From NCBI GenBank assembly GCA_902793285.1, contig CADBCV010000013.1, forward strand, positions 16,235 to 80,234: 64,000 nucleotides of DNA, in the 5' to 3' direction. The DNA is from Oscillospiraceae bacterium (GTDB taxonomy: Bacteria > Bacillota > Clostridia > Oscillospirales > Oscillospiraceae). This document shows, in pieces, positions 9,014-35,198 of the stretch. The position numbers and the translations under genes were made by a program. A model generated the notes under the pieces. The model searched no databases. It was given only the letters and a program-made list of their open reading frames with translations, and was not told the origin of the DNA. Every line of letters starts with the position of its first letter. Positions within the stretch are counted from its first letter, which is position 1.

Positions 9014-9074
9014 TGGCGACCGAGAAGGGACTTGAACCCTCGACCTCCGGCGTGACAGGCCGGCGTTCTAACCC
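9014..9074 (-). pseudogene. 3' fragment of tRNA-Asp (anticodon GTC), 5' half missing
   Basis: Read leftward from 9074, the sequence GGGTTAGAAC leads into a correct anticodon arm CCGGC-CTGTCAC-GCCGG (anticodon GTC), a T arm with GGTTCAAGTCC, the 3' acceptor strand CTCGGTC, discriminator G and CCA (9014-9016). The matching 5' acceptor (GACCGAG) and the 5' side of the D stem are absent; 9075 onward is unrelated sequence. Elements that integrate in tRNA genes leave exactly such displaced 3' halves, so this is a probable att scar. Confidence 0.75.
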
Positions 9075-9211
9075 AGACGGGACCCGATTTGTCAAGCGCC
9101 TTTTTCAAAAAATTCCCCATCTTTTCTTGGCGCGGCAGGGACAGCCTCGGGCGGCGGGCCTGGCGGCGGAAAAAATGCAGCGCTTTTTCGCCCAAAGTCG
9201 GGGGCTTTTGC

Positions 9212-25748: not shown

Positions 25749-26915
25749 TCAGCCCATGATCTTCTTGAGATCGGCGAGGCGCTCGAGGGCGGCGTTGAGG
25801 GTCTCGTCCTTCTTGGCAAAGTGGAGGCGGATGATGTGGTTCACGTTCTCCCGGAAGAAGGAGCTGCCCGGGACGCCCGCGACGCCGACCTTCGCGGCCA
25901 TCTCCTCGCAGAATTCCACGTCGCTCTGCCCCTTTTTGAGATAGGGGGAGATGTCGGTGAGGAGAAAGTATGTCCCCTCGGGATCGGTGAAGGGAATGCC
26001 GAGATCGCGGAGCCCTCCCGTGAAGAGGGCCTTCATGTGGGCGTAGTGGGCGGTAAAGTCGGTATAATAGCTGTCGGGCATCTCAAGGCCCACGATGGCG
26101 GCCTCCATGAGGGGTGCGGGCGCGCCGACGGCGTTGAAGTCGTGAAACTGCTTGATCTTGTCCATGAGGTGCTTCGGCGCGATGGCGTAGCCGAGACGCC
26201 AGCCCGTGATGGAATAGGTCTTGGAGAGAGAGTTGCAGGTGACGGTGCGCTCCCACATGCCGGGGAGATTGGCGAGGTAGGTGTGGACGTGCCCCTCGTA
26301 GATGATATGCTCATACACCTCGTCCGTGACGGCGTAGACGTCGTACTTGATGCAGAGGGCGGCGATGAGCTCCAGCTCCTCCTTCGTGAAGACGCGGCCG
26401 CTGGGGTTTGAGGGGTTGCAGAGGATGATGGCCTTGATGCCCTTTTTGAACACATCCTCGAGGACGTTGGGGTCAAAGCGGAAGGAGGGCGGGACGAGGG
26501 GGATGAAGACCGGCTCGCAGTCGGCGAAGAGGGTCTGGGCGGCGTAGTTTTCAAAATACGGGGAGAACATGGCGATCTTGTCCCCGGGATTCGTGAGGGC
26601 GAAAAGCGTGTCCACCATGGCCTCGGTCGAGCCGATGGTCACGACGATCTCGGTCTCGGGGTCGATGTCGCGGCCCATGAAGCGCCTGGTCTTCGCGGCG
26701 ACGGCGCGGCGGAAGTTCGGCGCGCCCATCGTGATGGGGTACTGGTGAGGGCCGACGGCGGCGACCTCGGCAAGCCTGTCGGTCATGGCCTTGGGCGGGT
26801 CAAAGTCCGGGAAGCCCTGGGCGAGGTTGATGGCGTTATTCGCGATGGCGATGCGCGTCATGCGGCGGATGACGGAGTCTGTGAACTGGCTGCACTTTTG
26901 ATTCATGGGTTTCAT
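25749..26915 (-). CDS. Class I/II PLP-dependent aminotransferase, probably aromatic/aspartate type
   Basis: 388 residues from ATG 26915, which overlaps the aroQ stop. The fold-type I features are LAQGFPDFDPP near the start, NPSNPSGRVF, TDEVYEHIIY, the lysine in SLSKTYSITGWRLGYA that binds PLP, and a late ENVNHIIRLHFA. It sits last in the aromatic operon, so it most likely transaminates phenylpyruvate and 4-hydroxyphenylpyruvate to Phe and Tyr; aspartate or kynurenine-type activity is the alternative. The longer open frame upstream (to 27005) is within aroQ and is ignored. Confidence 0.85.
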   Translation of the reverse strand: MKPMNQKCSQFTDSVIRRMTRIAIANNAINLAQGFPDFDPPKAMTDRLAEVAAVGPHQYPITMGAPNFRRAVAAKTRRFMGRDIDPETEIVVTIGSTEAMVDTLFALTNPGDKIAMFSPYFENYAAQTLFADCEPVFIPLVPPSFRFDPNVLEDVFKKGIKAIILCNPSNPSGRVFTKEELELIAALCIKYDVYAVTDEVYEHIIYEGHVHTYLANLPGMWERTVTCNSLSKTYSITGWRLGYAIAPKHLMDKIKQFHDFNAVGAPAPLMEAAIVGLEMPDSYYTDFTAHYAHMKALFTGGLRDLGIPFTDPEGTYFLLTDISPYLKKGQSDVEFCEEMAAKVGVAGVPGSSFFRENVNHIIRLHFAKKDETLNAALERLADLKKIMG

Positions 26916-27358
26916 GTGTTTTCTCTCCCCTCCAGATAGTTTTTGAGAAACAGGATGGCCTGCCGGTAGCCCTCGAAGCCGAGGCCGATATAGCTTTTTA
27001 CGCACGCGAGGCCCGCGTAGGAGATCTGCCGGAAGCTCTCGCGCTTTGTGACGTCGGAAAGGTGCACCTCCACGGCGGGGATACTGACGGCCTTGAGCGC
27101 GTCGAGGATGGCGACGCTCGTGTGCGTGTAGGCCGCGGGGTTTATCACAATGCCGTCAATGCGGCCGTACGCGCCCTGGATCGTGTCCACGATGGCCCCC
27201 TCGTGATTGGACTGGAAAAGCTCCGCCTCGATGCCCTGCGCTTCACAGGTCTCGCGGATGAAGTTTTCCAGCGCCGCAAAGTCCTGCCTGCCGTAGATGT
27301 CCGGCTCCCGCAGGCCGAGCATGTTGAGATTCGGCCCGTTGATGATGAGCAGCTTCAT
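26912..27358 (-). CDS. aroQ: Type II 3-dehydroquinate dehydratase
   Basis: 148 residues, the standard length. It begins MKLLIINGPNLNMLGLREP (active-site loop with the catalytic Tyr in DIYG), then QSNHEGAIVDTIQ, INPAAYTHTSVAILDAL and EVHLSDVTKRESFR, all diagnostic. It dehydrates 3-dehydroquinate to 3-dehydroshikimate, cytosolic shikimate pathway. It overlaps both neighbours by 4 bp. Confidence 0.95.
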   Translation of the reverse strand: MKLLIINGPNLNMLGLREPDIYGRQDFAALENFIRETCEAQGIEAELFQSNHEGAIVDTIQGAYGRIDGIVINPAAYTHTSVAILDALKAVSIPAVEVHLSDVTKRESFRQISYAGLACVKSYIGLGFEGYRQAILFLKNYLEGRENT

Positions 27359-28575
27359 CCCAGCGCCTCCAGAACGGCGCGCGCGGTCTCCTCCGGCGTG
27401 CCGGTATTTTCGACGGTGAAGTCGGCAAACTGCGCGTACAGCGGGGCGCGGCGGGCGTACATGGCGCCGAGGTCCGCGTTTTCCGACAGGGGCCTCCCCT
27501 TTCGCGCAAGCTCCCCGACCGGCCGCGTGAGCCAGACGAGACGCCCGTTCTGGTGCAGGAGCGGGTAGTTTTCCGCCCGGGTGACGCAGCCGCCGCCCGT
27601 GGCGATAACCGTGTGGGACTCTTTGCCGAGCGCCGCGAGGACGGCCGTCTCCCGCCGGCGAAAGCCCGCCTCCCCCTCCAGCTCGAAGATGCGGGGGATG
27701 GACATGCCGGCCTCGCGCTCGATCTCTCTGTCCGCCTCGGCACAGGGGCGGCCCAGCCGCTGCGCGAGGAGCGCTCCCACGGTGGACTTGCCGCAGCCCG
27801 GCATCCCGATGAGGATGATGTTCTGCATGGAGGCGTCGAGAAGGGCTGTGATACGGGCGATCTCGGAATCGGGGAGGGCGCGGCCCTGGAAGATTTCGCT
27901 TGCGCGCTTGGCCTGGGCCACCAGCATCGTAAGACCCCCGGCGCAGGGGATGCCGCGCGCCTCCGCCTGCAGAAGGAGGGCGGTGCGCTTCGGGTTATAC
28001 ACCACATCCAAGACAGCCTCGAGCCCCGGGAAGCTGCAGAGCTCCACCGGGCTCACGCCGTTTTTGGGGTACATGCCGAGGGGCGTGGTGTTCACAAGGA
28101 TTTTCGCGTCCGCGTGGCGGTCGAGGTTCTGGTAGTTATTCTCACCATTCCGGGAGATGGGCACCACCTCGGCCCCGTGCGCTCTCAGCACCGCGCAGAC
28201 CGTGACGGATGCCCCGCCGGTGCCGAGGACGAGGGCCTTATTCCCCGCGATGCTGCCGGGGAGCGTTTGACGCAGCAGCGTCTCGAAGCCGAAGGCGTCG
28301 GTATTGTCGCCGAAGATCGTGCCGTCCTCGCGCCGCAGGAGAGTGTTGACGCTGCCGATGGTCCTTGCCGTGTCGGAGAGCGCATCGCAGAGGGGGATGA
28401 CGGTCTTTTTATACGGGATCGTGACGTTGAGGCCGTGCCAGGCGCCCTCCCGGATGAAAGCCTCCAGCTCCGCCGGCGCTTTTTCATAGAGGGCGTAGTC
28501 ATAGTCCGCAAGTTCCCGGTGGATGCGGGGGGAGTAGCTGTGGCCGAGCTTTTCGCCGAGCAGTCCGCATTGCAT
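27355..28575 (-). CDS. aroE-aroK: Shikimate dehydrogenase / shikimate kinase fusion
   Basis: 406 residues with two enzymes in one chain. Residues 1-245 are AroE: LGHSYSPRIH, NVTIPYKK (catalytic Lys), NTDAFGF and the NADP site GTGGASVT. Residues about 249-406 are AroK: the P-loop GMPGCGKST, the shikimate site in ADREIE, GGGCV and a lid GRPLSENADL. The two reactions are consecutive around shikimate, 3-dehydroshikimate to shikimate to shikimate 3-phosphate. A Met in the linker (ALLDASMQNIILIG) could mark the old kinase start, and an internal restart is possible. Confidence 0.93.
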   Translation of the reverse strand: MQCGLLGEKLGHSYSPRIHRELADYDYALYEKAPAELEAFIREGAWHGLNVTIPYKKTVIPLCDALSDTARTIGSVNTLLRREDGTIFGDNTDAFGFETLLRQTLPGSIAGNKALVLGTGGASVTVCAVLRAHGAEVVPISRNGENNYQNLDRHADAKILVNTTPLGMYPKNGVSPVELCSFPGLEAVLDVVYNPKRTALLLQAEARGIPCAGGLTMLVAQAKRASEIFQGRALPDSEIARITALLDASMQNIILIGMPGCGKSTVGALLAQRLGRPCAEADREIEREAGMSIPRIFELEGEAGFRRRETAVLAALGKESHTVIATGGGCVTRAENYPLLHQNGRLVWLTRPVGELARKGRPLSENADLGAMYARRAPLYAQFADFTVENTGTPEETARAVLEALG

Positions 28576-28576
28576 G

Positions 28577-29719
28577 TCAGATCACCTCGCTGTAGCTGCC
28601 GAGATACTCGTACTCGTCCGTGAGCTCGCCGAGCTCGCCCATGAGCTGGATGAAGCGCGGGGAGTAGACCGAGGTCTCGAAGTCAAAGTAGAACATGAAC
28701 TCGAAGCTCCGCTCCGGCATGGGGCGGCTTTCGAGCTTTGTGACATTGATGCCGAGGGCGTTGAAGCGGGAGAGGAGCTTATAGAGAGAGCCCGGCTCGT
28801 GCGGCAGGACCATCATGACGCTGGTCCGGTCCGCGCCGGGGTAGATTTCAAGATTGCGGGAAATGCAGATGAAGCGGGTGTAGTTGTTGCCGGAGTCCTG
28901 CACGTCGCTCTTTAAGATATCGAGCCCGTAGAGTCTCGAGCAGGCGCGGGAGGAGAGGGCCGCGATCCCGGGCTCTGTGGACTCCGCCGCCATTTTCGCG
29001 GCGAGGGCGGTGTTCTCGCAGGGGATGACCTTCACCTTCGGCAGGGTCTGCAGAAAGGCCGCGCACTGGGCGATGGCCTGGGGGTGGGAGTAGATCTCGC
29101 GGATGTCCTCGAGCTTCGTGCCCGGGCGGACGAGGAGGTTGTGGTCCACCTTTACCCGCACGGAGCGCACGATGCGAAAATCGTGCTTTCGCATGAGGTC
29201 GTAGACTGCGTTCACCGTGCCGGCGGTGCTGTTTTCCACCGGGATGACCCCATAGCGGCAGAGGCCCTTTTCGATGGCTGCGAAGACCGCGTCAAAGCTC
29301 GAGAAATAAAAGGTGCTGGGGCGCTTGAAGAGCTTTTCGCAGGCGATGCCGGAGTAGGCCCCCTCCACCCCCTGGCAGGCCACCGTGGCCGTCTCGGGAA
29401 AGAGCTGGGGCGTTTCCCGCAGGGCCTTTTCGATGGCGCGGGTCTCGGCGCTCTCGGGGCGGAGGATGCGCGTCTGATAGCTGCGGGAGAGCTCCATGAT
29501 GAGGGAGAAGAGGGAGAAAGCGTACTCGCGCATCTCCTCCGGGCACTGGGCCTCCAGGGTGCGGAGCTTCTCCTTTTCCCGGCGCAGGTCCAGAACGCGC
29601 ATCCCGTTATCCCGCTTCCAGAGGGCGATGTCGCCCGCGATGTCCATGCGGCGGTTGAAGAGCCCTAAAAGCTCGGCATCCAGCTCGTCAAGCTGCCTGC
29701 GGTAGTCCTGTAATTCCAT
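28577..29719 (-). CDS. pheA: Bifunctional chorismate mutase / prephenate dehydratase
   Basis: 380 residues. An AroQ-class chorismate mutase domain occupies about 1-90 (LDELDAELLGLFNRRMDIA, REKEKLRTLE); the prephenate dehydratase domain about 105-290 (VACQGVEGAYSGIACEKLF, VIPVENSTAGTVNAVYDLM, and the catalytic Thr-Arg-Phe in NNYTRFICI); and an ACT regulatory domain about 295-375 (VLPHEPGSLYKLLSRFNALG, LESRP) that normally binds phenylalanine. It makes phenylpyruvate from chorismate. One base separates it from aroE-aroK. Confidence 0.95.
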   Translation of the reverse strand: MELQDYRRQLDELDAELLGLFNRRMDIAGDIALWKRDNGMRVLDLRREKEKLRTLEAQCPEEMREYAFSLFSLIMELSRSYQTRILRPESAETRAIEKALRETPQLFPETATVACQGVEGAYSGIACEKLFKRPSTFYFSSFDAVFAAIEKGLCRYGVIPVENSTAGTVNAVYDLMRKHDFRIVRSVRVKVDHNLLVRPGTKLEDIREIYSHPQAIAQCAAFLQTLPKVKVIPCENTALAAKMAAESTEPGIAALSSRACSRLYGLDILKSDVQDSGNNYTRFICISRNLEIYPGADRTSVMMVLPHEPGSLYKLLSRFNALGINVTKLESRPMPERSFEFMFYFDFETSVYSPRFIQLMGELGELTDEYEYLGSYSEVI

Positions 29720-29732
29720 GTGGGTCCCTCCC

Positions 29733-30785
29733 TCAAATGATCATATCATAGACCGCGACGGCGGCCGCGGCCTCGAGGACCGGGACGGCGCGCGGAACGA
29801 TGCAGGGGTCGTGCCGCCCCTCGACCGTGAGCGTCTCAGGCGAGAGCGTTTTGAGATTCACGCTCTGCTGCGCCCGCGCAATCGACGGGGTGGGCTTGAT
29901 CGCGGCTCTGAACACCAGGGGCATCCCGTTTGAAATGCCGCCGAGGATGCCGCCCGCGTGGTTCGTGACGGTTTCGACGCGCCCGGCGTTTACACAGAAG
30001 GCATCGTTATGCTCACTGCCGCGCATCCGGGCGGCCCGGAAGCCCGCGCCGAACTCCACGCCCTTCACGGCGGGGACGGCGAAGACGAGGCGGGCGATCT
30101 GGTTCTCAAGCCCGTCAAACATCGGCTCCCCCACGCCGGGAGGCAGGCCGCGCACCACGCACTCGATGATGCCGCCGACGGAGTCCCCCTCCGCCCGGGC
30201 GCTCTGAATGGCAAGGCGCATTTGCTCCCCCGCGGCGTCGTCCACGACGGGGAAGGACTTTTCCGCGACGGAGCTTTCAAACGCGCCCTCGTCCCGGATG
30301 CCCGCGAGCTCCCAAATCCGGGCATCGACCGTGATGCCCCGTACCGCGAGCGCCTGCCTGAGGATGCCCCCCGCGACGCAGAGGGGCGCCGTGAGCCTGC
30401 CGGAGAAGTGGCCCCCGCCGCTGAAGTCCTGAAAGCCGCCGAACTTCACCTCCGCGGTGTAGTCGGCATGGCCCGGGCGGGGCGTGATTTTGAGCTTGGA
30501 ATAATCCCGCGGTCTTGTGTTGGTGTTTCGGATTACGGCGGTCAGCGGCGCGCCGCAGGTACAGCCGTCCTTGAGCCCTGCGAGAAATTCCGGGCGGTCT
30601 GCCTCCCTGCGGGGGGTGGACCAATCGTTCTGTCCGGGGGCGCGGCGGTTTAAGAAGGCTTGCAGCGCCTCCGTGTCCACGGGCAGCCCCGCGGGCAGGC
30701 CGTCGAGCGTCATGCCGATGGCCTCCGAATGGCTCTGCCCGAAAATGCTCAGGCGCAGGCGCCGGCCGATAAAGGTACTGCTCAT
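29733..30785 (-). CDS. aroC: Chorismate synthase
   Basis: 350 residues from ATG 30785; GGAGGTGCGCGAG precedes it, and the GTG at 30794 falls inside that site so is not used. Signatures are the N-terminal FGQSHSEAIG, RPGHADYTAEVKFGGF, and SGGGHFSGRLTAPL. FMN-dependent trans-elimination converts EPSP to chorismate, the branch point. The stop of aroA overlaps its start by 4 bp. Confidence 0.95.
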   Translation of the reverse strand: MSSTFIGRRLRLSIFGQSHSEAIGMTLDGLPAGLPVDTEALQAFLNRRAPGQNDWSTPRREADRPEFLAGLKDGCTCGAPLTAVIRNTNTRPRDYSKLKITPRPGHADYTAEVKFGGFQDFSGGGHFSGRLTAPLCVAGGILRQALAVRGITVDARIWELAGIRDEGAFESSVAEKSFPVVDDAAGEQMRLAIQSARAEGDSVGGIIECVVRGLPPGVGEPMFDGLENQIARLVFAVPAVKGVEFGAGFRAARMRGSEHNDAFCVNAGRVETVTNHAGGILGGISNGMPLVFRAAIKPTPSIARAQQSVNLKTLSPETLTVEGRHDPCIVPRAVPVLEAAAAVAVYDMII

Positions 30786-32044
30786 CTCGCGCACCTCCAG
30801 AAGTCCTCCCAGAAAGCGGGATAGGATTTTCGCACGCAGTCTGCGCCGCTGATCGTTACGCTCTCACGGCAGAGGCCGGCGGCAACGGCGGCGCTCATGG
30901 CGATGCGGTGGTCGCGGCAGGAATCAACGTCACCGCCGCGAAGTCCGCCCGTGCCGTGGATGACGAGGCCGTCGGGCAGCTCCTCCGCCGCCCCGCCGAG
31001 GTCGCGTATCAGCTTTGCCGTCGTTTGCAGGCGGTCGGACTCCTTCATGCGAAGCCGCGCCGCGTTTACGATGCGCGTGTCGCCCTCCGCCCCGCAGGCG
31101 AGCACCGACAGAACCGGAACCAGATCGGGGATCGGGGCGGCGTCAATGGTGAGAGGCCGCAGCTTTGCGCGCCGTACTGTCACCTCGCCCTCGGAGGCTT
31201 CGAGCGAAGCGCCGAACTGTCTTAAGATTTCCAGAACGGCCATGTCCCCCTGGGCAGAGCGGAGATTCAGCCCGCGCACGGTGACGCCCTTTTCGCTCAG
31301 CGCGCCCATACAGAGGAAGAAGGCGGCGTTTGACCAGTCCCCTTCCGCGCGCAGGACGCCGGGAAGCGCAAAACCTTGGAGGCCGGGGATGCGCCAGCTC
31401 TGTCCCGCCCGCTCGATCCGGACGCCGGAGCGCGTGAGCGCGTCCTCCGTCAGGCGGAGATAGCCCGCGGATTCAAGCGTCCCCTCCGCCGTGACCGAGC
31501 TCGCGCCCGAAAGCCGCGGCAGGGCCATCAGGAGGCCCGAGAAATACTGGCTTGACACGTCCCCCGCGAGGCTGTAGGCCCCGCTCTGGAGCTGTCCGCC
31601 GAAACGCAGCCAGCTCCCGTCCCGGGAAATCTCCATCCCGTGGGCGCGCAGGACGTCTTCATAGATCTGCATGGGCCGCTCGGGCAGGCGGCCCTCCATT
31701 TTGAAACAGCCTGAGACGCCGAGCGCCCCGGCCACGGGGAGCAGAAAGCGGAGCGTTGAGCCGCTCTCCCCGCAGGGGAGCAGGCCGCCGCTGACCGGCT
31801 TTTGAATGGGCGTGACACGGATGCGGCGTCCCTTCGTTTCGATCCCCGCGCCAAGCGCTTTGAGGCACTTCGCCGTGGCGAGGATGTCCTTGGAAAAGCC
31901 GTCGATCAGAAGGGTTGTTTTCTCCGTCCCCAGCGCGGCGCAGATCAGCAGGCGGTGGGCAACAGATTTGGAGGAGGGAATACAGACTTTGCCCGCGCAG
32001 GGCCCCGGTGTCAGCCCGACAGAAAAACCGCGTTCCTTCTTCAT
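30782..32044 (-). CDS. aroA: 3-phosphoshikimate 1-carboxyvinyltransferase (EPSP synthase)
   Basis: 420 residues from ATG 32044, which overlaps the aroB stop (ATGA). Two-domain inside-out barrel signatures: IPSSKSVAHRLLICAAL, LPCGESGSTLRFLLPVAG, SSQYFSGLLMALP, RMKESDRLQT and DHRIAMSAAVA. It transfers enolpyruvate from PEP to shikimate 3-phosphate. The GESGSTLRF motif has Glu-Ser in place of the common Gly-Asn-Ala-Gly; this type of site is associated with class II, naturally glyphosate-tolerant enzymes in other bacteria, but tolerance here is not established. Confidence 0.94.
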   Translation of the reverse strand: MKKERGFSVGLTPGPCAGKVCIPSSKSVAHRLLICAALGTEKTTLLIDGFSKDILATAKCLKALGAGIETKGRRIRVTPIQKPVSGGLLPCGESGSTLRFLLPVAGALGVSGCFKMEGRLPERPMQIYEDVLRAHGMEISRDGSWLRFGGQLQSGAYSLAGDVSSQYFSGLLMALPRLSGASSVTAEGTLESAGYLRLTEDALTRSGVRIERAGQSWRIPGLQGFALPGVLRAEGDWSNAAFFLCMGALSEKGVTVRGLNLRSAQGDMAVLEILRQFGASLEASEGEVTVRRAKLRPLTIDAAPIPDLVPVLSVLACGAEGDTRIVNAARLRMKESDRLQTTAKLIRDLGGAAEELPDGLVIHGTGGLRGGDVDSCRDHRIAMSAAVAAGLCRESVTISGADCVRKSYPAFWEDFWRCAR

Positions 32045-33093
32045 CTCAGCCCCGCCTCCAGCCAGGTGTACGCCTCCTCCGCCGTCACGGGGAGGATCTC
32101 GCACCGGCCGACGGCGCGCGGCACGATGAGGTGCAGCCTGCCGCCGGAAAATTTCTTGTCCAAAAGTAAGGTATCATAGAGCTCCGCCGCGCTGTACTTT
32201 GTCTCGGTTGGAAGATCATATGCGCGCAGGAGGGCGATCACGGCGTCGCGGTCAGCGGGGGCGAGCAGGCCCTTTTTGCAGGCCGCGCGGCATATCATCG
32301 CCGTGCCGACCGAGACGGCCTCCCCGTGCAGGAGAGTGTAGGCGCTGCGGCTCTCCACCGCATGGCCAAAGGTATGGCCGAGATTCAAAAGTCTGCGCGC
32401 CCCGGTATCCCGCTCATCCTCCGCGACGATGGCAGCCTTGTGCCTTACGCAGGTTTCGATGACCTCCGCTGGCTCGATGCTCTTATCCCCGAGGGCCTTG
32501 AAGAGCGCGGGGTCGCCGAGGACGGCGTATTTGATGACCTCCGCGTACCCCGCCGCAAGCTCCCGCGCCGGCAGGGTTTGGAGAGTGTCGGTATCGCACA
32601 GGACCAGGGCGGGCTGATAGAACGCGCCCACCTGGTTTTTCCCCTGGGGCAGGTCGATGGCGGTCTTCCCGCCGACGGAGGAGTCCACCGCCGCGAGGAG
32701 CGTGGTGGGAACCTGGACGAAAGCGATGCCCCGCTGGTAGGTCGCGGCGGCAAAGCCGGCGAGATCGCCGGTCACCCCGCCGCCGAGGGCGACAAGGCAG
32801 TCCGTGCGGGTAAAGCGCCGCTCGGCGAGAAATTCCAAAAGCTCCCCATAGTGCCGCAGGCACTTGGTCCCCTCCCCCGCCGGGAGGACGAGGGAGCAGG
32901 TCTCAAGCCCCGCACCCTGAAGGCTCTCCAAAGCCGCCGCGCCGTAGAGGGGGAAGACGTTCTCCCCGGCGATGACGGCGCACTTTCGGGCCTTTGTCCT
33001 CTCGCGCACGCCCGCGCCCAGGGTTTGAAGGAGCCCCTGGCCGATCCGCACCGCGTAGTGCCCCGAGGGGGCGTTGACCGTGACGCTTCTCAT
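32041..33093 (-). CDS. aroB: 3-dehydroquinate synthase
   Basis: 350 residues from ATG 33093, overlapping the tyrA stop by 4 bp. NAD site GGGVTGDLAGFAAATYQRG, then PTTLLAAVDSSVGGKTAID, ELAAGYAEVIKYA, and the zinc ligands in LLNLGHTFGHAVE and LLHGEAV. It cyclises DAHP to 3-dehydroquinate. Slightly shorter than the usual 355-370 residues, but complete. Confidence 0.95.
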   Translation of the reverse strand: MRSVTVNAPSGHYAVRIGQGLLQTLGAGVRERTKARKCAVIAGENVFPLYGAAALESLQGAGLETCSLVLPAGEGTKCLRHYGELLEFLAERRFTRTDCLVALGGGVTGDLAGFAAATYQRGIAFVQVPTTLLAAVDSSVGGKTAIDLPQGKNQVGAFYQPALVLCDTDTLQTLPARELAAGYAEVIKYAVLGDPALFKALGDKSIEPAEVIETCVRHKAAIVAEDERDTGARRLLNLGHTFGHAVESRSAYTLLHGEAVSVGTAMICRAACKKGLLAPADRDAVIALLRAYDLPTETKYSAAELYDTLLLDKKFSGGRLHLIVPRAVGRCEILPVTAEEAYTWLEAGLR

Positions 33094-33926
33094 TTCCCGT
33101 CGATCTCCTCTTTGAGGCGCTTCCCCTCGGCAAGCAGGGCCGTGAGGGTTTCCCCGTCCTCCGCCGCCATGGCGTCGCGGTAGGATTTCAGGTTTTCGAT
33201 GAGGCAGTCCACCTCGCGGATGAGGTATTCGCGGTTTTCCAGAAAGAGCTCCGACCACATGGGGGCGTTGAGCCAGGCCACGCGGGTGAGATCCTTGTAG
33301 CTGCCGGCGGAGAAGCCGTGGTGGAGCTTTGCCGTGGGGCTTTTCACATAGGCGTTGGACACCACATGCGCAAGCTGGGAGGTGAAGGCGATCATCTCGT
33401 CGTGGGCCTCGGCCGTCGTGACCGAGAAACGCCCGAAGCCAGCCGGGGCGAGGAGGGTCTTGACTCTCTCGAGGAGGAAGATATCGTCAAACTGCGGCGG
33501 CACGATGACCATGGGCTGGCGGGCGTACATGGTGGCCTTCGCATATTTGTAGCCGGAATACTGGGTGCCCGCCATGGGGTGGCCGCCCACAAAGGTGAAG
33601 CCGTGCTCCGCCGCGATGGGAAAGCACGCCTCGCAGACCGTGCGCTTCGTGCCGCAGCAGTCCATGACGAGGGGCTTTTTGCCGATGTAGGGGGCGAAGT
33701 CCCGCAGGGTCTCGATGGCGGCCTCCGGGAAGATGGTGAGGAGGACAAGGTCGCAGTCGGAGATGTTCTCCTTCGTGAGCTCCCCGTCCGCATCGCCGCT
33801 CAGGAGGGCGAAGTCCAGGGTGCTCCGGCTGCGGTTGTGGGCGAGGACCGTCCAGCCCGCCGCGTGGTAGGCCTTCACGAAGCTGCCGCCGATGAGGCCG
33901 AGCCCAAATACGCCGACGGTGCTCAT
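33090..33926 (-). CDS. tyrA: Prephenate dehydrogenase
   Basis: 278 residues. The N-terminal Rossmann motif [15 protein letters not shown] binds NAD(P); DCCGTKR and [12 protein letters not shown] follow, containing the catalytic His, and the helical dimerisation domain (about 165-278) has [13 protein letters not shown]. It oxidatively decarboxylates prephenate to 4-hydroxyphenylpyruvate for tyrosine. No ACT domain is present, unlike the longer Gram-positive forms, so feedback control may rest on aroF and on the attenuator. Confidence 0.93.
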
Positions 33927-34924
33927 CGGATCGCCTCCCGCACGGCGCGGACCTTTTCGGCAAGGGCCGCAAACTCCTCGGGTCGGAGGCTCTGCGCCCC
34001 GTCGCAGAGGGCGTGGATGGGGTCGTTGTGCACCTCGATGATGAGCCCGTCCGCCCCTGCCGCGGTCGCGGCGAGGGCCATGGGCGGCACCAGGCGCGCG
34101 ATGCCGGTGGCATGGCTCGGATCCACGATGATGGGCAGGTGCGTAAGCTCCCGCAGCATCGGCACCGCGGAGAGATCGAGGGTGTTGCGGGTGTAGTCCG
34201 AGAAGGTGCGGATGCCCCGCTCGCAGAGCATGACGCGCTCGTTCCCGCTCGCCATGATGTACTCCGCGCTCATGAGAAGCTCCTTGAGGGTGTTGGCAAG
34301 GCCGCGCTTGAGGAGGATCGGCTTATCCACACTGCCGAGCTCGCGCAGAAGGTCGAAGTTCTGCATGTTGCGCGCGCCGATCTGGATAACGTCCACATCC
34401 TCAAAGAGCGGCAGGTCGTTGATGTTCATGAGCTCCGTCACGATGGGGAGCCCCGTCTCGGCCCGGGCGATCTTGAGAAGCTCCAGCCCCTCGGCCTTGA
34501 GGCCCGCGAAATCATAGGGGGAGGTGCGGGGCTTGAACGCGCCGCCGCGCATGAGCGTCGCGCCCGCGGCCTTCACGGCCTTCGCCACCGTGACGATCTG
34601 CTCCTCCGACTCGACCGAGCAGGGGCCCGCGATCATGACGAAATTGCCCGCGCCGACCTTCACGTCACCCACCTCCACCACGAGAGACTCCGGGTGGAAC
34701 TTCCGGTTGCACATCTTGAAGGGCTCCGACACGCGCTTGACGCTGTCCACGATGTCAAGGCTCTCCACAAGGTCGATGTCCACGCGGGAGGTGTCCCCCA
34801 CGAGGCCGAGGACGGTCTGAAATTCCCCGTCCGAGATGTGGATGCGAAGGCCCAGACCCTGGAGCCACGCGATGAGCTGCGCCCGCTTTTCCTCCGGAAC
34901 GCCGTGCTTTAATACAACGATCAT
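33923..34924 (-). CDS. aroF: DAHP synthase, type I-beta with N-terminal regulatory domain
   Basis: 333 residues. Residues 1-70 form a ferredoxin-like regulatory domain ([10 protein letters not shown]...), as in the Thermotoga enzyme, which is Tyr/Phe-inhibited; residues about 80-330 are the TIM-barrel with [51 protein letters not shown] and DPSHATG. It condenses PEP and erythrose 4-phosphate, the first committed step. As first gene of the operon, its start (CAGGAGGATTATCAC before ATG) lies 156 bp after the leader peptide stop. Confidence 0.95.
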
Positions 34925-35003
34925 GTGATAATCCTCCTGATTGTATCATTCAAGTCGTTTTTCAGGCAGCTTTGCCGCCTGAAATCCATGATTTCAATCG
35001 AAT
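34925..35003 (-). promoter_or_regulatory. aroF leader segment between attenuator and start codon
   Basis: Contains an 8-bp hairpin TTTCAGGC/GCCTGAAA (about 34961-34984) without a T-run and then the aroF ribosome site. It may stabilise the read-through transcript. Confidence 0.4.
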
Positions 35004-35035
35004 AAAAAACAAACCGCACAGGATAACCTGTGCGG
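35004..35035 (-). terminator. Attenuator terminator of the aromatic operon
   Basis: On the minus strand CCGCACAGG-TTAT-CCTGTGCGG is a perfect 9-bp stem followed by TTTGTTTTTT. Its loop and 3' arm include TTATCCT, which is complementary over 7 bp to AGGATAA right at the leader peptide stop, giving an alternative antiterminator pairing (35020-35026 with 35074-35080). Confidence 0.88.
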
Positions 35036-35079
35036 CAAAAAGCTGATTGCGTCCCTCTTTTTTGCGCCACAAATTATCC

Positions 35080-35136
35080 TTACCTGGCAAGGCCGGTAAA
35101 GAGGTAATAATAGGCGTAAAACAGAGAAGTGTTCAT
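35080..35136 (-). CDS. Aromatic operon leader peptide (Tyr/Phe-rich)
   Basis: An 18-codon ORF, MNTSLFYAYYYLFTGLAR, with four Tyr and two Phe within eight consecutive residues. It lies between a sigma-A promoter and an intrinsic terminator upstream of aroF. By analogy with known attenuators, a ribosome stalled at uncharged Tyr/Phe codons leaves AGGATAA (35074-35080) free to pair with the terminator loop, so the operon is read; when translation reaches the stop, that segment is covered and the terminator forms. The upstream GGGAG (about 35146-35150) can serve as ribosome binding site. Confidence 0.88.
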   Translation of the reverse strand: MNTSLFYAYYYLFTGLAR

Positions 35137-35169
35137 GAAAAAATCTCCCGATCTTTCATTCTTTACTGT

Positions 35170-35198
35170 ATTGTAGCGCAATTTCATTATACTGTCAA
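35170..35198 (-). promoter_or_regulatory. Sigma-A promoter of the aromatic operon
   Basis: On the minus strand TTGACA (35193-35198), 17-bp spacer, TACAAT (35170-35175), about 35 bp before the leader peptide start. Confidence 0.88.

Follow-up and report, generated by a model that had tools for sequence, protein, structure and literature searches.

A candidate Tyr/Phe leader-peptide attenuator before a nine-gene aromatic operon and a TrpX-like transporter in Clostridia

The window, a stretch of 64,000 nucleotides from a gut-dwelling Oscillospiraceae bacterium (contig CADBCV010000013.1, positions 16,235 to 80,234), carries an aromatic amino acid operon of nine ORFs on its minus strand. All nine match the expected NCBIfam families and six of them score over the curated cut-off; the matches of tyrA, the aroE-aroK fusion and the aminotransferase fall under theirs. 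Read in the direction of transcription, the operon consists of aroF, encoding DAHP synthase (33923..34924; NF006421, 478 bits, cut-off 335); tyrA, encoding prephenate dehydrogenase (33090..33926); aroB (32041..33093; TIGR01357, 346 bits, cut-off 305) and aroA (30782..32044; TIGR01356, 327 bits, cut-off 287), the starts of both being our choice; aroC (29733..30794; NF003793, 389 bits, cut-off 321); pheA, encoding chorismate mutase/prephenate dehydratase (28577..29719; NF008865, 224 bits, cut-off 219); the aroE-aroK fusion (27355..28575); aroQ, encoding a type II dehydroquinase (26912..27358; TIGR01088, 178 bits, cut-off 170); and a class I aminotransferase with a tentative start (25749..26915; NF006488, 379 bits, cut-off 498). 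This is the order, from aroF to a terminal aminotransferase, that an earlier note on this DNA had given. Neighbouring ORFs overlap or lie at most 13 nt apart. A consensus scan of the operon strand between 25500 and 35000 returned no promoter-like sites and one terminator-like site.

Before aroF, between 35198 and 35004 on the same strand, lies a Tyr/Phe-rich leader. It opens with a sigma-A type promoter (35170..35198), identified by consensus match at 11 of 12 positions, in which TTGACA (35198-35193) and TACAAT (35175-35170) are separated by a 17-nt spacer. GGGAG (35145..35149), 8 nt 5' of the leader ATG, reads as a likely ribosome-binding site. The leader ORF (35080..35136) encodes MNTSLFYAYYYLFTGLAR followed by a stop codon; its 18 codons include four for Tyr (Tyr7, 9, 10 and 11), two for Phe (Phe6 and 13) and zero for Trp, and its start codon and ribosome-binding site suggest that it is translated. 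An intrinsic terminator (35004..35036), recognised by folding and covariation, sits between the leader ORF and aroF, the first gene of the operon: the stem GCCGCACAGG-TTAT-CCTGTGCGGT (35036-35013) is followed by the T-run TTGTTTTTT (35012-35004) and, with its tail, has a folding energy of -19.0 kcal/mol. The promoter, with its 17-nt spacer, and the 18-codon ORF at 35136-35080, with four Tyr and two Phe codons, were found as the earlier note had described them, as were the terminator and its T-run; the stem has 10 pairs, including a terminal G-U, rather than the 9 bp claimed. In the predicted fold without a ribosome, the end of the ORF forms a 5' hairpin, TTACCGGC-CTT-GCCAGGTAA (35080..35099), whose 3' side overlaps the antiterminator 5' arm by its first base. 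A second hairpin, TTTCAGGCGGC-AAA-GCTGCCTGAAA, lies between the terminator and aroF (34960-34984) and has no T-run.

The antiterminator 5' arm, which covaries in relatives, occupies 35059..35080 (AGGATAATTTGTG at 35080-35068 plus GCAAAAA at 35065-35059), and the 3' arm 35020..35041 (TTTTTGC at 35041-35035 plus CACAGGTTATCCT at 35032-35020), both on the minus strand. Together they form 13 bp between AGGATAATTTGTG and CACAGGTTATCCT, a 2x2 internal loop and 7 bp between GCAAAAA and TTTTTGC (-23.7 kcal/mol). The 7-bp pairing of AGGATAA with TTATCCT proposed earlier is real, but it is only the outer part of a helix of about 20 bp. Because the antiterminator uses the terminator 5' arm, the loop and the first three bases of the 3' arm, the two structures are mutually exclusive. 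Compared with 200 dinucleotide shuffles, the leader RNA had a fold z of -4.4, and 0/200 shuffles folded as well.

We predicted the effect of ribosome position using an assumed footprint that reaches 15 nt from the first A-site base. With this footprint, AGGATAATTTGTG is covered when the ribosome stands on the stop codon and free when it stands at Tyr9-Tyr11 or at Phe13. In partition function calculations on the RNA left free, the terminator had a probability of 0.97 without a ribosome and 0.95 with one at the stop, against 0.12, 0.17 and 0.24 with a ribosome at Tyr9, 10 and 11 and 0.02 at Phe13; the contrast between the stop and Tyr9-11 or Phe13 is consistent, within the limits of sequence, with the claim that the geometry fits ribosome-stalling attenuation. 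For a stall at Phe6 or Tyr7 the full-length terminator is predicted to be intact (0.97-0.98), which counts against the attenuator reading. In a transcript that ends at TTATCCT and so still lacks the remainder of the terminator, the antiterminator is predicted for stalls at codons 6, 7, 9, 10, 11 and 13, but not once the ribosome has advanced to codon 18 or 19. Among 77 loci with leaders, an equilibrium switch (terminator >0.5 at the stop and <0.5 at some aromatic codon) was seen in 22 and was absent in 55. Equilibrium folding was therefore dropped as a general proof of a switch; this modelled result counts against a purely thermodynamic picture, and co-transcriptional kinetics must be assumed.

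We compared the leader with sequences upstream of aroF in relatives. AroF matched at least 595 stretches, at least 591 of them true relatives, and the best 80 loci were kept as a comparison set, not a census. Their records are mostly labelled Oscillospiraceae, Ruminococcaceae, Lachnospiraceae or Clostridia MAGs, and a few are labelled, as recorded, as other phyla (Thermoguttaceae, Lentisphaerae, Kiritimatiellae). An ORF of 10-45 codons, at most 300 nt upstream of aroF and with at least 6 Y/F/W in 10 residues, was present in 72 of these best 80 loci, compared with 0/80 in antisense, 17/800 in dinucleotide shuffles and 10/2568 in other 300-nt windows of the same loci. At a threshold of at least 5 in 10, the corresponding counts were 75/80 against 5/80, 75/800 and 42/2568. 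Judged by these controls, the aromatic-rich ORF before aroF is not a product of chance. When 520 nt upstream were considered, 77 of 81 rows (the window plus the 80 loci) reached at least 5 aromatics in 10; among the four that did not (L008, L019, L025 and L062), L019 has a short YYY-containing ORF ahead of a terminator despite its count, and no aromatic leader ORF was seen upstream of aroF in L008, L025 and L062.

Across the 77 aroF leaders there are 305 Tyr, 308 Phe and 13 Trp, so that Tyr and Phe are used equally. The peptides run from 13 to over 30 residues, and the order of aromatic residues and the residues that flank them vary over wider distances; by this comparison, composition is kept more than exact sequence. 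Among peptides of the window's genus there is some similarity by position: YYYFT or YYFT frequently occurs close to the end. A search of the 61 genomes of the genus located aroF in 48, and a leader (at least 4 Y/F/W in 10) was present at 29/29 fetched aroF loci besides the window's own. Trp codons occur in 10 of the 77 leaders; the idea that they track trp genes was rejected, as the short flanks downstream show tyrA, aroB or aroA by eye and no link. The aroF leaders of L010 and L012 end in WRWRKF, with no convincing terminator by scan, and are perhaps a separate, Trp-containing leader type.

A permissive search found some terminator hairpin in 80 of the 81 rows, weak in a few (for example L062). 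Pairing between the ORF-end segment and the terminator arm beat shuffles at p<0.05 in 54/80 rows and at p<0.01 in 26/80 (median p 0.025), with p of 0.05 or more in 26/80. Ranked among the corresponding segments from other loci, the ORF-end segment had a median rank of 0.076 and was under 0.1 in 43/80. We built an alignment, A1, in which the window is joined by 28 of the 41 loci with the motif TTTG[TC]G.TGC or a near variant, giving 29 sequences. The other 13 motif loci were left out, 11 with an ORF that runs through the arm and two (L020 and L046) removed by hand; 11 loci of another arm type and 28 loci with neither motif also lie outside A1. Since the rows were picked by TTTG[TC]G.TGC or near variants, its invariance in A1 is by construction.

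In A1 the terminator had 95.2% of cells paired, two-sided changes at 7 of 10 pairs (reached by 3/500 shuffles) and a covariation of 0.370 compared with 0.179 in shuffles (0/500). The antiterminator was 86.0% paired with a covariation of 0.219 against 0.173 (0/500 shuffles), and its 5 pairs with two-sided changes were not above shuffles (mean 4.4; 228/500). We also performed a gap-free test on the four bases adjoining TTTGTG; these mostly find their partners in the terminator loop, and in some rows also at the end of the 5' arm or the start of the 3' arm. The aroF leaders gave 19 distinct pairs with 0.711 paired against 0.615 (4/2000 shuffles; 28/29 A1 rows anchored), and the transporter leaders described below gave 12 distinct pairs with 0.708 against 0.523 (2/2000 shuffles; 23/25 rows of their alignment, A2, anchored). 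For A2 this gap-free count replaces a column-wise pair count because gaps split the helix. The earlier note had looked to relatives for a conserved Tyr/Phe ORF and compensatory changes in both helices; the ORF is there at the 72 of 80 loci and the 29/29 genus loci, and both helices covary, so this comparison did not refute the note's reading. The 11 loci of the other arm type, which include Oscillibacter and Dysosmobacter records, carry CGGTTTGGC or a sequence near it inside the ORF end. In most of the 11, this sequence pairs with the terminator arm, and 6/11 reach p of 0.05 or less; the FGLAE-like tails that their peptides have in common look like the result of a constraint on the RNA. At L028, L030, L033, L034, L036-L038, L042, L044, L056 and L059, leader ORFs cross the antiterminator arm and have tails such as GKAYFGLAE, a peptide tail that seems to be set by RNA pairing.

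A covariance model of the antiterminator region, with the Tyr/Phe codons outside the model, matched strongly at two places in the window's genome, namely at the aroF leader (E 1.7e-14) and, with E 1.2e-9, at G000:C43:11686-11786. At this second copy (L091/L128, G000:C43:11000-17000), a leader MPRMRYTAAYVYYDYLYQRT, with Tyr and no Phe, precedes an ABC substrate-binding protein (PF04392, 180 bits; NCBIfam TrpX, 213 bits, below the cut-off of 390), and this TrpX-like gene is followed by permease and ATPase genes. The element is not confined to the aroF operon, where the earlier note had placed it. Across 40 genomes, the window's own included, there were 26 model matches in 18 genomes (E up to 0.05); an aromatic-rich ORF (at least 4 Y/F/W/H in 10) was present at 25 of the 26, and L120 is a weak match without a leader. 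The targets were aroF in 13 cases, TrpX-like genes in 11 and a TrpB-like gene in 1. A TrpX-like protein occurs in 48 of the 61 genomes of the genus; among the 30 best loci, upstream sequence of at least 200 nt was available for 27, and a leader was present at 25 of those (all but L151 and L153). The upstream sequence of L141, L147 and L152 is short, though the 172 nt of L152 still show a leader. A class-wide search with another model, R1, matched 11/291 genomes (own included), a count that is no measure of distribution because R1 is narrow and the filters strict; among its matches, L102 is an inverted repeat without a leader. As the same element stands before the aroF operon and a TrpX-like transporter, synthesis and uptake would form one Tyr/Phe regulon, with a transporter whose substrate appears to be Tyr/Phe.

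T-boxes are present in the window's genome as well (8 matches, 3 over the cut-off), where they precede valS, pheS, alaS and metN-like genes among others, as read from the downstream proteins. With one of them before a gene read as pheS, leader-peptide and T-box systems coexist in this genome. Another T-box stands before a second TrpX-like protein (HMM 201 bits, cut-off 390). Divergent TrpX-like paralogues of this kind (28-34% identity; L089, L190-L209) were examined in 20 of the 26 cases listed, own included; the remaining 6, and two further proteins of 43% identity, lie outside this set. Each of the 20 is preceded by a T-box, over the gathering threshold in 7 cases, and in all 20 the specifier is GAA-UGG (Trp); the specifier frame agrees by eye with GTC, TTC and GCC at the T-boxes of the putative valS, pheS and alaS genes. 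A T-box with UGG before one TrpX-like paralogue and the leader before the other point to Trp and Tyr/Phe transporters, respectively, and the divergent paralogue appears to be a Trp transporter under T-box control.

In the aroF leader itself, a T-box (RF00230) gave no match at E up to 10, and Rfam 15 at the gathering threshold gave none in the leader or in 20 related loci; a T-box or known riboswitch in the leader was rejected on this lack of an Rfam match. At E up to 10, the leader had matches of 16.8 bits or less only. One of these, RF04312 (trpB motif, 16.8 bits), was rejected, with 0/8 genomes over the cut-off and weak matches in 5/14 control genomes too. Rfam at gathering within the window found two tRNAs only; the match at 9017-9089 is barely over the threshold (32.7 bits, threshold 29) and stands beside a strong one (71 bits).

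Rarer targets were also found. A second match in genome G108 (L103/L129) lies ahead of genes for a phenylacetate-CoA ligase (560 bits, cut-off 646) and an ACT-domain protein, and its leader, MFLSVLFVFICLYFYFFAFLFCKSKSVLCCG, is rich in Phe; a search of the G108 family for further PaaK examples gave matches in 2/6 genomes and no new target. In genome G317 (L116/L130), the genes downstream of the leader MRNVSAKYWRYFNFTFYGFAAGV encode a TrpB-like enzyme, a sodium/solute symporter, PaaK and an ACT protein. Three of the four genomes of the G317 family have a match, and the other two matches (L218 and L219) retain AKYWRYF, with its one Trp codon, before a TrpB-like ORF that is similar by eye. The antiterminator of this family changes on both sides, with GGTCGA opposite TTGACC and GGTTGA opposite TCAACC. 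The leader codons, together with what is generally known of PaaK/ACT clusters, lead us to infer that the PaaK/ACT/TrpB-like operons may salvage aryl acids into amino acids.

The aroF leader is very probably a ribosome-mediated transcription attenuator that senses charged tRNA-Tyr and tRNA-Phe. We infer stalling, a switch in cells and an operon-wide effect as follows. The predicted transcription start lies near 35163, after which a ribosome would begin to translate the leader of 18 codons. As long as Tyr and Phe are plentiful, this ribosome would reach the UAA at 35082-35080 and, with an assumed footprint of about 15 nt, cover AGGATAATTTGTG; the antiterminator would then be blocked, the terminator would form and transcription would end at the T-run. 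If Tyr (codons 9-11) or Phe (codon 13) were short, the ribosome would stall upstream and leave the antiterminator 5' arm free to pair with the emerging terminator 5' arm and loop, allowing read-through into the nine genes from aroF to the aminotransferase. A TrpX-like transporter that shares the element with the aroF operon would join the same Tyr/Phe regulon, and the divergent paralogue would remain under the Trp T-box.

Other explanations account for parts of these observations. Control of the terminator by a T-box or small-molecule riboswitch, with the leader ORF incidental, would suit a genome with 8 T-box matches, and antiterminator/terminator geometry is common to riboswitches; yet no Rfam family reached its gathering threshold in the leader or the 20 related loci, no T-box appeared in the leader at E up to 10, and what persists from locus to locus is an aromatic-rich ORF in varying surroundings, which a riboswitch would have no need of. 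We regard this reading as very unlikely. Even less likely, in our judgement, is a TnaC-like arrest, in which the nascent peptide would halt the ribosome by sensing free Tyr or Phe rather than through codon starvation: mainly composition is kept over wider distances, in peptides of 13 to over 30 residues and varying order, and 305 Tyr against 308 Phe in the 77 leaders is what codon counting predicts, although the YYYFT or YYFT near the peptide end in the window's genus is a positional similarity in its favour. The explanation we find least likely of all is a plain terminator beside a chance aromatic-rich ORF, with no regulation. Terminators upstream of operons are common and equilibrium folds lack a switch in 55/77 loci, but such ORFs are rare in shuffles and antisense, and in each of two gene contexts, aroF and transporter, the extended part of the antiterminator covaries with the bases that it pairs with.

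The pheA (pheL) and trp attenuators of enterobacteria likewise combine a short ORF rich in the regulating codons with an alternative antiterminator and terminator. Unlike those systems, which serve one branch, the leader described here mixes Tyr and Phe codons, and its operon spans the common pathway and both branches; they belong to a different phylum from the Clostridia element, and no sequence relation is claimed. As described, uORFC-13-1 is also an upstream ORF adjoining a terminator before aroF, known from 24 representatives in Acholeplasma and environmental sequences, with a U run coding for at least one Phe and a proposed role as a sensor of Phe incorporation (PMC8632094). By that description it differs from the dense Tyr/Phe ORFs, defined antiterminator, Clostridia hosts and several target operons found here. 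The tyrosine operon of the Bacillus cereus group is reported to be under T-box control, which involves the same pathway and the same signal, charged tRNA, though there the tRNA binds the leader directly and no leader peptide is involved (PMC2494555). In Lactobacillales, the gbs2033/gbs1262 elements occur before ABC transporter operons and the aroFBC-tyrA operon of E. faecium, and so share with our leader one cis element for both kinds of target, a terminator and, for gbs1262, an antiterminator; they were read as riboswitches of 195-270 nt, and the main text of that report does not contain the term 'leader peptide' (PMC4448216). His leader peptides before hisZ and hisS* in bacilli are a further reported case of leader-peptide attenuation in Firmicutes, where T-boxes are usual, but they use His codons and hisS-type genes and have no relation to aromatic operons (PMC2965389). 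Finally, a T-box reported before trpX in Streptococcus suis links a TrpX-type transporter to amino acid supply through an RNA element and matches the T-box paralogue seen here; it differs from our leader in being a T-box and in its amino acid, Trp (PMC9382623).

No recognisable description of the Clostridia element was seen among the full-text literature matches listed, a set that leaves most subscription journals outside. The class of mechanism is already known; the element, its spread and the regulon with its T-box partition appear to be new. We think it reasonably likely that much of Clostridia reuses an undescribed Tyr/Phe attenuator cassette, which would form the core of an aromatic regulon that takes in synthesis, uptake and, in part of the genomes, the salvage of aryl acids via PaaK/ACT/TrpB-like operons, that this cassette shares the job with T-boxes, and that TrpX-like paralogues can be separated as Tyr/Phe or Trp by their leaders alone. 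Leader-peptide attenuation is usually taught from Proteobacteria. If this reading is true, it would be a recurrent form of control of aromatic synthesis in gut and rumen Clostridia, alongside T-boxes. It would also give a testable substrate prediction, Tyr/Phe rather than Trp, for a transporter family named after tryptophan, and would hint at a biosynthetic (salvage) direction for PaaK/ACT/TrpB-like operons in some of these Clostridia.
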